Shown here one piece after another: positions 15,768 to 22,434 of a DNA stretch of 64,000 nucleotides; positions within the stretch are counted from its first letter, which is position 1, and each line of letters opens with the position of its first letter. Origin of the DNA: Pseudomonas sp. Teo4 (lineage in GTDB: Bacteria > Pseudomonadota > Gammaproteobacteria > Pseudomonadales > Pseudomonadaceae). The notes under the pieces were generated by a model. That model saw nothing but the letters and a program-made list of their open reading frames with translations. It was not told where the DNA came from and did no database searches. The translations under genes were made by a program, and so were the position numbers. The stretch lies in the NCBI RefSeq assembly GCF_034387475.1, contig NZ_JAXCIL010000002.1, positions 620,001-684,000 on the forward strand, in the 5' to 3' direction.

Positions 15768-15784
15768 TGCACACTATTGGTGCG
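15768..15784. promoter_or_regulatory. Predicted NtrC site 1 upstream of glnA
   Basis: TGCACACTATTGGTGCG matches the NtrC consensus TGCACYA-N4-TGGTGCA at most positions (GCAC-N7-GTGC). It lies about 105 bases upstream of the sigma-54 promoter. A weaker copy, CGCATCTTAAGGGTGCA, is at 15799-15815. Confidence 0.6.
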
Positions 15785-15888
15785 CACAAGACGAAACTCG
15801 CATCTTAAGGGTGCATTTTTCTTCCGCGAACCGCCGCCAGATGCCCCTAAACGCCCCCTTTTATCCCGCTCTCGCCATTTTTGGGCAC

Positions 15889-15904
15889 TGGCATGCAATT
15901 TGCT
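15889..15904 (+). promoter_or_regulatory. Predicted sigma-54 promoter of glnA
   Basis: TGGCAT-N5-TTGCT has GG and GC ten bases apart and differs little from the RpoN consensus. Transcription would start near 15914, about 88 bases before the glnA ATG. NtrC-like sites lie upstream at the usual distance for an enhancer. Confidence 0.65.
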
Positions 15905-16001
15905 CTCTTGTGAGGCAGGTAAGCTTGGCCGACTATGCGCGCCCGGCGACACCCTTTTTCCAGGGCAGCGGCTAAGCGCCCTAGACCATCCGGAGGACAA
16001 C

Positions 16002-18355: not shown

Positions 18356-19441
18356 ATGACCATCAGCGATGCACAGCACCGTCTGCTTCTGGACAACCTG
18401 ACCACGGCCACGCTCCTACTCAACTCGGAGCTACGCCTGGAATACATGAACCCGGCCGCCGAGATGCTCTTGGCCGTGAGTGGTCAGCGCAGCCACGGGC
18501 AGTTCATCAGCGAGTTGTTCACCGAATCGACCGAAGCGCTCAACTCGCTGCGCCAGGCCGTGGAACAGGCACACCCGTTTACCAAGCGCGAAGCGCAACT
18601 GACGTCGCTGACCGGCCAGACCATCACGGTCGACTATGCCGTCACGCCGATCCTGCATCAGGGCAATACCTTGCTGCTGCTGGAGGTTCACCCGCGTGAT
18701 CGACTGCTGCGCATAACCAAAGAAGAAGCCCAGCTGAGCAAGCAGGAAACCACCAAGATGCTGGTGCGCGGCCTGGCCCATGAAATAAAGAACCCGCTGG
18801 GTGGCATCCGTGGCGCGGCGCAGCTGCTGTCCCGCGAACTGCCCGACGATGGCCTGCGCGACTACACCAATGTGATCATTGAAGAGGCCGACCGATTGCG
18901 CAATCTGGTCGACCGCATGCTCGGCTCGAACAAGCTGCCGTCACTGGCCATGACCAACATCCATGAAGTATTGGAGCGGGTCTGTAGCCTGGTGGATGCC
19001 GAAAGCCAGGGTTGCATCACTTTGGTGCGCGATTACGACCCTAGCCTGCCGGACGTGCTGATCGACCGCGAACAGATGATCCAGGCCGTACTCAACATCG
19101 TGCGCAATGCCATGCAGGCGATCAGCTCGCAAAACGAACTGCGCCTCGGCCGTATCACCCTGCGCAGCCGCGCAGTACGCCAGTTCACCATCGGCCATGT
19201 GCGTCATCGCCTGGTGGCCCGCGTCGAAATCATCGACAACGGCCCGGGAATTCCGTCGGAACTGCAGGACACCCTCTTCTATCCCATGGTCAGTGGACGT
19301 CCGGACGGTACCGGGCTGGGCCTGGCCATCACCCAGAACATCATCAGTCAGCACCAGGGCTTGATCGAATGCGAGAGCCATGCCGGCCACACCGCGTTTT
19401 CGATCTTCCTGCCCCTGGAACAAGGAGCCAACGCCTCATGA
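18356..19441 (+). CDS. ntrB: Nitrogen regulation sensor kinase NtrB (GlnL)
   Basis: NtrB phosphorylates NtrC under nitrogen limitation and is turned into a phosphatase by GlnB/GlnK. This 361-residue protein has a PAS domain (about 10-120) and a DHp helix with the phosphorylated His142 in GLAHEIKNPLGG. Its HATPase domain contains NIVRNAMQA (N box), DNGPGIP (G1) and GTGLGLAI (G2). It has no transmembrane segment. Its last codons overlap the ntrC ATG (ATGA), giving a coupled two-gene unit. Confidence 0.97.
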   Translation: MTISDAQHRLLLDNLTTATLLLNSELRLEYMNPAAEMLLAVSGQRSHGQFISELFTESTEALNSLRQAVEQAHPFTKREAQLTSLTGQTITVDYAVTPILHQGNTLLLLEVHPRDRLLRITKEEAQLSKQETTKMLVRGLAHEIKNPLGGIRGAAQLLSRELPDDGLRDYTNVIIEEADRLRNLVDRMLGSNKLPSLAMTNIHEVLERVCSLVDAESQGCITLVRDYDPSLPDVLIDREQMIQAVLNIVRNAMQAISSQNELRLGRITLRSRAVRQFTIGHVRHRLVARVEIIDNGPGIPSELQDTLFYPMVSGRPDGTGLGLAITQNIISQHQGLIECESHAGHTAFSIFLPLEQGANAS

Positions 19442-20874
19442 GCCGAAGTGAAACCGTATGGATCGTCGATGATGACCGTTCCATCCGCTGGGTACTGGAA
19501 AAAGCCCTACAGCAAGAAGGCATGGCCACCCAGAGCTTCGACAGCGCTGACGGCGTGATGGGCAGGCTGGCCCGCCAGCAACCGGATGTGATCATCTCCG
19601 ACATCCGCATGCCGGGCACCAGCGGCCTGGACCTGCTGGCTCAGATCCGCGAGCAGCACCCACGCTTGCCGGTCATCATCATGACCGCCCACTCCGACCT
19701 GGACAGCGCCGTGGCTTCGTACCAAGGCGGCGCCTTCGAGTACCTGCCCAAGCCGTTCGACGTGGACGAGGCCGTGTCGCTGGTCAAGCGGGCCAATCAA
19801 CATGCGCAAGAGCAGCAAGGCCTGGATGTTCCACAAAGCCTGGCACGCACACCGGAAATCATCGGCGAAGCGCCGGCCATGCAGGAGGTGTTCCGCGCCA
19901 TCGGCCGCCTGAGCCATTCCAACATCACCGTGCTGATCAATGGTGAGTCCGGTACCGGCAAGGAACTGGTGGCTCACGCCCTGCACCGCCACAGCCCACG
20001 TGCGGCGTCGCCATTCATCGCGCTGAACATGGCGGCCATCCCCAAAGACCTGATGGAATCAGAGCTGTTCGGCCACGAAAAAGGTGCGTTCACCGGAGCA
20101 GCCAACCTGCGCCGCGGTCGCTTCGAGCAGGCTGATGGCGGCACGCTGTTCCTCGACGAAATCGGCGACATGCCGGCCGACACACAGACCCGCCTGCTGC
20201 GAGTACTGGCCGATGGCGAGTTCTATCGGGTCGGCGGGCATATTCCAGTGAAAGTCGATGTGCGCATCATCGCCGCTACGCACCAGAACCTCGAATCCCT
20301 GGTACAGGCCGGCAAGTTTCGCGAAGACTTGTTCCACCGCTTGAACGTGATCCGCATTCATATCCCGCGCCTGGCAGACCGGCGCGAAGATATTCCGGCC
20401 CTGGCCCGCCACTTCCTTGGCCGCGCCGCACAGGAACTGGCGGTCGAACCCAAGCTGCTGAAGCCGGAAACCGAAGAGTTCATCCGTAACCTGCCGTGGC
20501 CGGGCAACGTGCGTCAGCTGGAGAACACCTGCCGCTGGATCACGGTGATGGCGTCCAGCCGCGAGGTGCTGATTGGCGACCTGCCTCCAGAGCTGCTGAA
20601 CCTGCCTCAGGACGCCGCACCGGTAACCAACTGGGAGCAGGCCCTGCGCCAGTGGGCCGACCAGGCCCTGGCACGCGGGCAGTCCAACCTGCTCGACAGC
20701 GCAGTGCCCAGCTTTGAACGCATCATGATCGAGACCGCACTGAAGCACACTGCTGGTCGTCGTCGCGACGCAGCCGTGTTGCTGGGCTGGGGCCGTAACA
20801 CCCTGACTCGCAAGATCAAGGAGCTGGGGATGAATGTGGCTGGCGGGGATGATGAAGACGCCGACGAGCATTGA
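19438..20874 (+). CDS. ntrC: Nitrogen regulation response regulator NtrC (GlnG)
   Basis: NtrC-P activates RpoN promoters of nitrogen-assimilation genes. It has 478 residues. The receiver domain carries Asp55 in SDIRMPGT. The AAA+ domain carries Walker A GESGTGKE, the sigma-54 contact GAFTGA and the Walker B region GGTLFLDEIGD. A Fis-type helix-turn-helix is at the C-terminus (RRRDAAVLLGWGRNTLTRKIKEL). The start at 19438 overlaps the ntrB stop. The predicted NrsZ-like sRNA lies immediately downstream. Confidence 0.98.
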   Translation: MSRSETVWIVDDDRSIRWVLEKALQQEGMATQSFDSADGVMGRLARQQPDVIISDIRMPGTSGLDLLAQIREQHPRLPVIIMTAHSDLDSAVASYQGGAFEYLPKPFDVDEAVSLVKRANQHAQEQQGLDVPQSLARTPEIIGEAPAMQEVFRAIGRLSHSNITVLINGESGTGKELVAHALHRHSPRAASPFIALNMAAIPKDLMESELFGHEKGAFTGAANLRRGRFEQADGGTLFLDEIGDMPADTQTRLLRVLADGEFYRVGGHIPVKVDVRIIAATHQNLESLVQAGKFREDLFHRLNVIRIHIPRLADRREDIPALARHFLGRAAQELAVEPKLLKPETEEFIRNLPWPGNVRQLENTCRWITVMASSREVLIGDLPPELLNLPQDAAPVTNWEQALRQWADQALARGQSNLLDSAVPSFERIMIETALKHTAGRRRDAAVLLGWGRNTLTRKIKELGMNVAGGDDEDADEH

Positions 20875-20898
20875 TGCCTGACAGCCTGCGCTGACTTT

Positions 20899-20963
20899 TT
20901 CGCGGGTAAACCCGCTCCCACAGGGATCACACCGAACCCTGTGGAAGCGGGTTTACCCGCGAA
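20899..20963. repeat. Inverted REP pair (GCGGGTTTACCCGC class)
   Basis: TTCGCGGGTAAACCCGCTCCCACAGGG at 20899-20925 is mirrored at 20937-20963 with one mismatch. It starts 24 bases after the ntrC stop and may stabilise or end the ntrBC message. It is the same class as the pair at 8616-8697. Confidence 0.8.
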
Positions 20964-20996
20964 TGCTTTTGCAATACGCCCCAACTCTCGCCGCCA

Positions 20997-21013
20997 TGCA
21001 CCGATCCTGTGCC
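20997..21013. promoter_or_regulatory. Predicted NtrC site upstream of the NrsZ-like sRNA
   Basis: TGCACCGATCCTGTGCC has the GCAC-N7-GTGC core of the NtrC site and lies about 85 bases before the sigma-54 promoter. A weaker half-match (GCACCGCCCGAAGGCA) follows at 21018-21033. Confidence 0.5.
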
Positions 21014-21095
21014 CGACGCACCGCCCGAAGGCATAAATCCCCTCAAAACCCGGCCAAATCGCCCTGAAAGCCAATGTTTCCGGGTTTTTCAAAAC

Positions 21096-21111
21096 TGGCA
21101 CGCCCCCTGCA
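21096..21111 (+). promoter_or_regulatory. Sigma-54 promoter of the NrsZ-like sRNA
   Basis: TGGCACG-CCCC-CTGCA has a perfect -24 element and a -12 element off by one base, with GG-N10-GC spacing. It is the best RpoN promoter in the window. Transcription would start near 21121, at the beginning of the repeat array. Confidence 0.75.
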
Positions 21112-21114
21112 ATA

Positions 21115-21427
21115 GCTAATACATCTCCAGTTTCGGGGGCCTCGGTACAGGCAGGCCGGGTGAACCCCTCTTTTATTCGCAGTCGCTCCAGTTTTGGGGA
21201 CCTTGGTACAGGCAGGCCGGGACATCCCCTCTTTTACATGCAGTAGCTCCACCCTTCGGGGACCTCGGTACAGGCAGGCCGGGACATCCCCTCTTTTACA
21301 CGCAGTAGCTCCACCCTTCGGGGACCTTGGTACAGGCAGGCCGAGACATCCCCTCTTTTACATGCCGTAGCTCCACCCCTTCGGGGACCTCGGTACAGGC
21401 AGGCCGGGACATCCCCTCTTTTATTCG
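21115..21427 (+). repeat. Five tandem ~62-bp direct repeats
   Basis: The copies are at about 21115-21180 (most divergent), 21181-21241, 21242-21303, 21304-21365 and 21366-21427. Copies 3 and 4 differ at only a few positions; copy 5 has one extra C in the CCCC-TTCG stem. Units are contiguous with no unique spacers, which excludes a CRISPR array. Confidence 0.92.
21121..21427 (+). ncRNA. nrsZ: NrsZ-like nitrogen-regulated small RNA built of tandem repeats
   Basis: The stretch consists of five direct repeats of about 62 bases between ntrC and the conserved membrane-protein gene. That is the same site as the NtrC/RpoN-dependent sRNA NrsZ of P. aeruginosa (PA5125-PA5126 gap), which is also modular. 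Units share CTCGGTACAGGCAGGCCGGG and end in CCCCTCTTTTA. Copies 3-5 carry a hairpin capped by TTCG (CCCTTCGGGG). A sigma-54 promoter and NtrC-like site lie upstream. The 3' end is uncertain; the last U-rich tract is at 21417-21424, overlapping the end of the opposite gene. Assignment is by position and architecture, not by base-by-base comparison. Confidence 0.75.
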
Positions 21428-21858
21428 TGCAGCCTTACCTGCACACGCCAACGTCCAGCGTCCTCTGCACCGGCCCACTCGCCGTGCAGGGGACGCGCGG
21501 CCACCACGGTCAACAGCAAGCCTTCCTCACTCTTCTGCAAACGCCAGCCCACCGGCTTGCCCTGCAGGCTCAATTGTCCGCGCTGTGCCTTGCCTTGCGC
21601 CTCGAACAGCACCGCGACCGTTCCTTCCACATTCTCGCCGTGGAGCTTGGGTTCTTCGTTGAACCAAAGGTCCAGGCCATCCTGCACGACCTCCACCTGT
21701 TCCAGTACACGCTCGTCAGGCGAGGTCAGCTTGCCGATCATGAGGCCGACCATCAGGCCGACAATCGCCAAAGAGAGCAGCACCCGTGGGAAGCCTTTCG
21801 AACGCAGGTCCGGTTCGGGGGTAGAATGCTCGCCATCTTCACGCTTGGAGCCGTGCAT
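21421..21858 (-). CDS. Conserved membrane-anchored hypothetical protein
   Basis: This 145-residue protein has a polar N-terminus, one transmembrane helix at about residues 25-45 (VLLSLAIVGLMVGLMIG) and a soluble C-terminal domain of about 95 residues. It matches, by position, the uncharacterised gene between ntrC and trmL in other Pseudomonas (PA5126 in P. aeruginosa). The role is unknown. Its ATG overlaps the ATG of trmL on the other strand, and its 3' end runs into the last unit of the sRNA repeats. Confidence 0.75.
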   Translation of the reverse strand: MHGSKREDGEHSTPEPDLRSKGFPRVLLSLAIVGLMVGLMIGKLTSPDERVLEQVEVVQDGLDLWFNEEPKLHGENVEGTVAVLFEAQGKAQRGQLSLQGKPVGWRLQKSEEGLLLTVVAARPLHGEWAGAEDAGRWRVQVRLHE

Positions 21859-22318: not shown

Positions 22319-22333
22319 TGCAGCGCATGCAAT

Positions 22334-22414
22334 GGCCCTATCGCCGGCAAGCCGGCTCCCACAAAGACCGCACACCACAGTTCCTGTGGGAGCCGGCTTG
22401 CCGGCGATAGGGCC
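22334..22414. repeat. Inverted REP pair (GCCGGCAAGCCGGC class)
   Basis: GGCCCTATCGCCGGCAAGCCGGCTCCCACA at 22334-22363 is perfectly mirrored at 22385-22414 around a 21-base centre. It lies between convergent trmL and secB. Confidence 0.88.
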
Positions 22415-22434
22415 GGTGCAGACAACCAGGCAAT

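Follow-up and report, generated by a model that had tools for sequence, protein, structure and literature searches.

Tandem and duplicated small RNAs

NrsZ of Pseudomonas aeruginosa PAO1 is a small RNA of about 226 nt that is made in nitrogen limitation through NtrB/C and RpoN and is detected as species of around 40 and 140 nt. The initial 60 nt are sufficient, and the RNA contains ACAGGCAG and activates rhlA, possibly through opening of the leader (PMC9308961 and PMC8395346, available sections). NrsZ is also present in Hfq CLIP-seq data, in which the difference between conditions is not significant (PMC6890931, available sections). In P. putida KT2440, ntrC is raised under nitrogen limitation in a study that excluded non-coding RNA reads (PMC7801951, available sections). 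NsiR1 of Nostoc/Anabaena is likewise a nitrogen-stress small RNA of about 60 nt that is encoded in a tandem array of identical and diverged copies, but its twelve copies each have their own promoter and depend on HetR (PMC9045159, available sections); we treat this likeness as an analogy and claim no common sequence. In excerpted accounts, PrrF1, PrrF2 and PrrH of P. aeruginosa similarly comprise neighbouring duplicate small RNAs and a longer form that joins them, whereas PrrF1 and PrrF2 are two full small RNA genes under Fur and concern iron rather than nitrogen. NrsZ itself is reportedly processed into three similar short modules, a finding ascribed to Wenner et al. 2014.

The window (the whole 64-kb stretch of DNA that was analysed) contains an array that resembles PAO1 NrsZ (family RF02695), as described in the excerpts available, in its place between ntrC and a PA5126 homologue, in its sigma-54-type promoter and in its ACAGGCAG hairpin modules. 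It differs in having five modules spaced 61–63 nt in a predicted RNA of about 304 nt, against 226 nt in PAO1. On sequence grounds, the feature is the NrsZ gene of a putida-group Pseudomonas, which adds to a known family a gene with the uncommon number of five modules. We propose, with a probability of roughly three in four, that NtrC and sigma-54 drive an NrsZ precursor of about 300 nt, that this precursor is cut or stopped into units of about 60 nt that pair through their loops, and that the extra modules arose by tandem duplication. The parts of the locus are as follows, with the scores of a single-module covariance model, R1, given for the modules.

18356..19441, + strand: ntrB (HisKA, HATPase_c and PAS)
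19438..20874, + strand: ntrC (Sigma54_activat, Response_reg and HTH_8), start judged by eye in an open frame that begins at 19369
20997..21012, + strand: NtrC-like palindrome TGCACCGATCCTGTGC, a probable upstream activator site judged by conservation in relatives
21018..21033, + strand: second NtrC-like site, degenerate (GCACC-N6-AAGGCA), seen by eye in many aligned rows and unscored
21096..21111, + strand: sigma-54-type promoter TGGCACGCCCCCTGCA, start expected near 21122
21122..21425, + strand: predicted NrsZ small RNA of about 304 nt with five modules (RF02695 matches); 5' end placed from the promoter and 3' end from the last tail
21130..21174, + strand: module 1, core hairpin and tail (58.4 bits)
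21191..21234, + strand: module 2 core (65.5 bits)
21253..21296, + strand: module 3 core (61.5 bits)
21315..21358, + strand: module 4 core (60.7 bits)
21378..21421, + strand: module 5 core, a probable terminator hairpin (61.5 bits)
21417..21425, + strand: U-rich tail of the last module, TCTTTTATT, read from the sequence and overlapping the stop codon of the convergent gene (21421-21423)
21421..21858, − strand: convergent PA5126-like gene, 145 aa, without a Pfam family and with relatives in 74 loci

A SpoU-type methylase gene also adjoins the locus, beyond the PA5126-like gene; the name PA5126 is taken from the preliminary description of this DNA and from excerpts of reviews. The transcribed part probably begins near 21122, with 20997-21121 as the control region.

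Assignment to the NrsZ family

RF02695 matches the window at 21123-21308 (120.5 bits) and at 21312-21512 (77.6 bits, extending beyond the array), both above the gathering cut-off of 76.9 bits; five modules give two matches because the Rfam model covers three. In a search of the whole genome, the best match scores 123.7 bits and two overlapping matches fall below the cut-off. The model matches 291 of 298 genomes of the genus (203 above the cut-off) and 219 of 298 genomes in a draw from the family that takes in many of the genus (108 above the cut-off), and none of the 14 control genomes. R1 matches 389 of 398 genus genomes and, across the order, eight of 145, of which five belong to the family and three are weak (21–26 bits) and are taken as chance. 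Judged from these matches, NrsZ is a Pseudomonadaceae RNA within the sampled genomes and the window gene is its orthologue.

The genomic setting points the same way. Genome G511, which has the strongest RF02695 match seen (259 bits), has the identical gene order ntrC, NrsZ, PA5126-like gene and SpoU-type methylase gene, although its three modules are spaced 89 and 80 nt and those of the window 61–63 nt. All five modules of the window array carry the ACAGGCAG hairpin, and both the sigma-54-type promoter and the NtrC-like site are present in the sequence. The preliminary description had proposed NrsZ, had named a covariance-model search as one check and had counted the lack of a model match and of homologous repeats downstream of ntrC in other P. 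putida as evidence against. Its proposal is upheld by the RF02695 match above the cut-off, by the synteny with G511, by the conserved sigma-54 element and by the NtrC-like palindrome of most putida-group loci, and relatives do carry homologous repeats. Neither ANGGA nor AANAANAA, which we take to be the motifs of Rsm- and Crc-type sponges, occurs in 21118-21430. All Rfam matches in the window other than NrsZ score below their own cut-offs, and the REP-like palindromes of the window attract such matches to unrelated families.

Module structure

The ACAGGCAG loops start at 21147, 21208, 21270, 21332 and 21395, at spacings of 61, 62, 62 and 63 nt. Tandem Repeats Finder reports an array at 21132-21423 (period 62, 4.7 copies, 90% matches, score 456); the only two other arrays that it reports there have scores of 68 and 60. 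The five tandem modules first noticed by reading the DNA are confirmed. Their description as having no spacers is right in that the units abut, but within each unit the hairpin is followed by a U-rich tail and a short linker. Divergence had been described as graded, with copy 1 most changed and copies 3 and 4 nearly identical. The likeness of copies 3 and 4 stands, yet copies 3, 4 and 5 are all 90–95% alike, with an identical 44-nt core in 3 and 5, and copy 1 is not the sole outlier, for copies 1 and 2 are both diverged (68–74% to each other and to the other copies).

Each module is predicted to fold into an outer stem of 4–5 pairs and an inner stem of 6–7 pairs, separated by an internal loop and capped by an 8-nt loop; TCTTTT follows. 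The structure and loop counts use the best 150 of 166 R1 matches. Across 75 distinct modules, 99.6% of 750 cells are paired, versus 41–77% with partners slid; four of the ten hairpin pairs are invariant, two pairs show one compensatory change each, and the covariation score is 0.149, while partners slid by two or three columns give 0.150 and 0.180. Against shuffles, the stability of single modules is slightly higher (z −0.5 to −1.8) and that of the whole array is lower (z +2.6, with 100 of 100 shuffles folding at least as well). The pairing data are supportive of the predicted hairpin, not strong. The ACAGGCAG loop is found in 149 of the 150 modules, the exception being Pseudomonas sp. BP8 with one extra A, a conservation that is no unbiased test because R1 was built from modules selected by ACAGGCAG.

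A tree built from neighbouring genes places the window and P. taiwanensis as sisters (SH-aLRT 99), and the two share the linker GTAGCTCCACCC. P. capeferrum, which joins them with a support of 80, has two modules, as do Pseudomonas sp. GM84 and P. faucium of the same wider group. By eye, the two-module genes have a first module like module 1 of the window and a second like its last module. On the simplest reading, duplication of a single unit would have given modules 3–5, no later than in the ancestor common to the window and P. taiwanensis, and modules 1 and 2 would be older. The recent amplification proposed earlier is supported as an amplification, but it predates the strain, since P. taiwanensis shares the amplified linker type. 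In P. taiwanensis DSM 21245, the nearest relative, a run of N lies within the NrsZ array.

Module number in Pseudomonas

Counted genome-wide with R1 under strict filters and with 15 candidates scored per genome, so that single values may be slightly off, the 398 genus genomes have no match in nine cases, one in 105, two in 69, three in 147, four in 45, five in 16, six in one, seven in five and eight in one, which places at least five modules in 23 of 398. Nine genomes lack an R1 match (G157, G298, G222, G223, G240, G284, G037, G273 and G317); the contig of G157 ends at the locus, the ntrC match of G298 lies 58 nt from a contig end, and G222, G223, G240 and G284 are less than 90% complete. Among the 49 genomes that are best by ntrC match, 48 have an NrsZ match and none has more than four modules, a set that includes the P. 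taiwanensis draft with the gap in its array; G307, at about rank 54 by ntrC match and also 86% identical, has five.

In 74 named loci, counts by loop motif give one module in 22, two in 23, three in 24 and four in five, after correction by hand of a spurious loop in L093 and of a module missed in L102 (extra A in the loop), and with the four of P. taiwanensis (L091) as a minimum. On the tree, at least 19 changes of module number are needed among 74 labelled rows (73 loci and the window, L102 being unlabelled); this was a quick tree from which the array was excluded, and 16 of its 72 inner branches are open. Spacing in 122 sequence-distinct multi-module arrays takes values of 43 nt, 57–64, 66–72, 76–90, 93–103 and up to 118–119 nt. 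The tightest array seen, in G001 (L202, G001:C1:767900-769400), has five hairpins at a constant 43-nt period and is almost linker-free, and the 118–119-nt unit of P. reidholzensis (L160) includes, with the hairpin, sequence that resembles the 3' end of the neighbouring gene. These differing unit lengths suggest repeated independent amplification in which the hairpin was kept whole. In P. soli (L125), a short tandem duplication of the 3' end of the PA5126-like gene is found without a hairpin. The NrsZ gene is ordinary for Pseudomonas, and its copy number is unusually labile between species. No mention of variable module number was found in the available parts of the NrsZ literature outside Wenner et al. 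2014.

Such variation might be neutral, an explanation that is somewhat less likely than not and is compatible with the NrsZ identity. One module would suffice, as the frequency of one-module genes allows, and the extras would come from slippage or unequal recombination without important effect; the many changes of number on the tree and the widely varying breakpoints and spacing are what such a process would leave. Less easily reconciled with neutrality are the commonest state, which is three modules, and the almost unchanged loop and stem of the extra copies, though recent copying could explain the latter.

Tails of the modules

TTTTATT follows the last or only module in 75 of 75 cases (74 loci and the window). 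The 89 internal modules have TTTTATT in 40 cases, T3A in 41 and T4 without ATT in eight, a class possibly inflated by the T run of the next module in closely spaced arrays. Of the window modules, the first has the full TTTTATT and modules 2–4 have TTTTACA. From this distribution, the last module would seem to act as the terminator, and internal tails would often be weakened. A confounder is that the terminal TTATTC of the window doubles as the last codon and stop of the convergent gene; this stop lies 28–32 nt from the final loop at 73 of the 74 loci and 60 nt from it in P. soli. A simple terminator scan called none of the window modules, and its stem rule may not admit the internal loop.

The modules could also be read as serial leaky terminators, giving a ladder of one- to five-module RNAs, in which case extra modules would affect the length of the RNA more strongly than the count of active molecules. 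TCTTTT stands after every hairpin, and the internal TTTTATT tails, module 1 of the window among them, equal those of last modules. We consider such a ladder improbable, given that in 41 of 89 internal modules the tail is no more than T3A, which looks weakened, that the terminator scan calls no module and that PAO1 NrsZ is reported to be processed (PMC9308961 and PMC8395346, available sections).

Control region

The promoter, TGGCACG-N4-CTGCA at 21096-21111, is the only match to TGGCACNNNNNYTGCA in the 64 kb, where shuffles give 0.15 expected matches and at least one in 14 of 100 cases; it stands directly before the modules, as had been noticed from the DNA. The GCAC-N7-GTGC site seen at the same time is at 20998-21012, 84 nt upstream of the promoter (about 85 in the earlier estimate). 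The palindrome was called with what we take to be the NtrC consensus: TGCACC-N5-TGTGC with at most one mismatch has five matches in the window against 3.4 expected, and the site at the locus alone has no mismatch. By count alone the NtrC-like site is not significant; that relatives conserve it speaks more strongly for a probable site.

Over the 130 nt scanned per row, GCAC-N7-GTGC, allowing one mismatch, is present in 50 of 72 rows (71 loci and the window), and 49 of these sites are at −97 to −101 from the promoter; it is missing from that stretch in 22 rows, including fluorescens-type loci and several one-module clades, and the pattern finds no match in G511. The sigma-54 element is found by pattern in 71 of the 74 named loci, which were collected through the PA5126-like protein, and its distance to the first loop is 51 nt in 54 loci, 65 nt in 12 and 50–72 nt in five. 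The pattern misses L093 and L102, where the element is visible by eye, and L144. The glnA region of the window (15768-15905), with the palindrome TGCACACTATTGGTGCGC and TGGCATGCAATTTGCT, is a likely NtrC and sigma-54 control region and served as a yardstick for that of NrsZ.

In at least four genomes (G003, G113, G303 and G324), NrsZ lies about 86 to 785 kb from ntrC. It still faces the PA5126-like and methylase genes there, neither of which was found in the 2.3–2.5 kb 3' of ntrC, and it keeps a sigma-54-like element just before its first module (72 nt before the loop in G003). The link between ntrC and NrsZ has perhaps been broken more than once. Since distant NrsZ genes keep the element, NrsZ would have its own promoter rather than be a piece of the ntrC mRNA. 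The array starts about 250 nt 3' of the ntrC stop on the same strand and could for that reason be a 3' untranslated region cut from the ntrBC transcript, without a promoter of its own; against its own conserved sigma-54 element and the four detached genes, this origin is very improbable.

A coding or REP-type repeat in place of an RNA gene has practically no chance of being right: REP-like palindromes adjoin the array (20897-20965) and open frames of 58–183 aa cross or touch it, but the reading is contradicted already by the family match and by the conservation of place and promoter, and a coding repeat was rejected because periods of 61–63 nt shift the frame between copies. The REP-like palindromes of the window are paired, at 20897-20965 and 22332-22416, and consist of cgcgggtaaacccgctcccacaggg and its inverse, plus a second kind.

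Proposed mechanism and targets

Based on the NtrC- and sigma-54-driven precursor favoured here, we propose that under nitrogen limitation phosphorylated NtrC would bind about 110 nt upstream of the start and activate sigma-54 RNA polymerase, and that the resulting transcript of about 300 nt would display five hairpins with ACAGGCAG and U-rich tails. The transcript would be cut, possibly by RNase E within the U-rich tails, or partly terminated at the tails, giving units near 60 nt, and up to five interchangeable units may pair with mRNAs via the loop. One unit may be enough, with which the natural one-module genes agree; extra modules may let each transcript yield more active units, and module number may set the RNA dose.

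Candidate targets were sought as exact 12-nt complements of the loop region CCTGCCTGTACC in 19 genomes, and among the 21 stretches examined no convincing target was found. One of these (L167) is NrsZ itself, and nearly all other sites fall within long open frames. The sole site in the genome of the window is 475 nt into a 493-codon ATG frame, and 29 nt upstream of this site a 253-codon GTG frame begins in another register. A coding site common to three genomes is best explained by protein conservation; the gene is presumably NadB-like. In L168 (G007:C5, mid-locus), an exact 12-nt loop complement lies in a 177-codon frame, 11 nt past its ATG, and is a possible target there.

Implications

This study extends a P. 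aeruginosa small RNA to the putida group in a five-module form. For annotation, it should be borne in mind that the 236-position Rfam model spans three modules and that only 203 of the 291 matching genomes (of 298) pass its cut-off. We tentatively suggest, as something possible rather than probable, that NrsZ is an evolvable dosage array, in which few-module ancestors repeatedly and independently gave rise to precursors with three to eight modules, and in which module number would tune how many active regulators are released per NtrC-driven transcription event. If so, selection would act on how many copies a single small RNA gene contains, and that number would be a regulatory trait. The natural series of one to eight modules of one gene is material with which to ask whether repeats in a precursor multiply its output.
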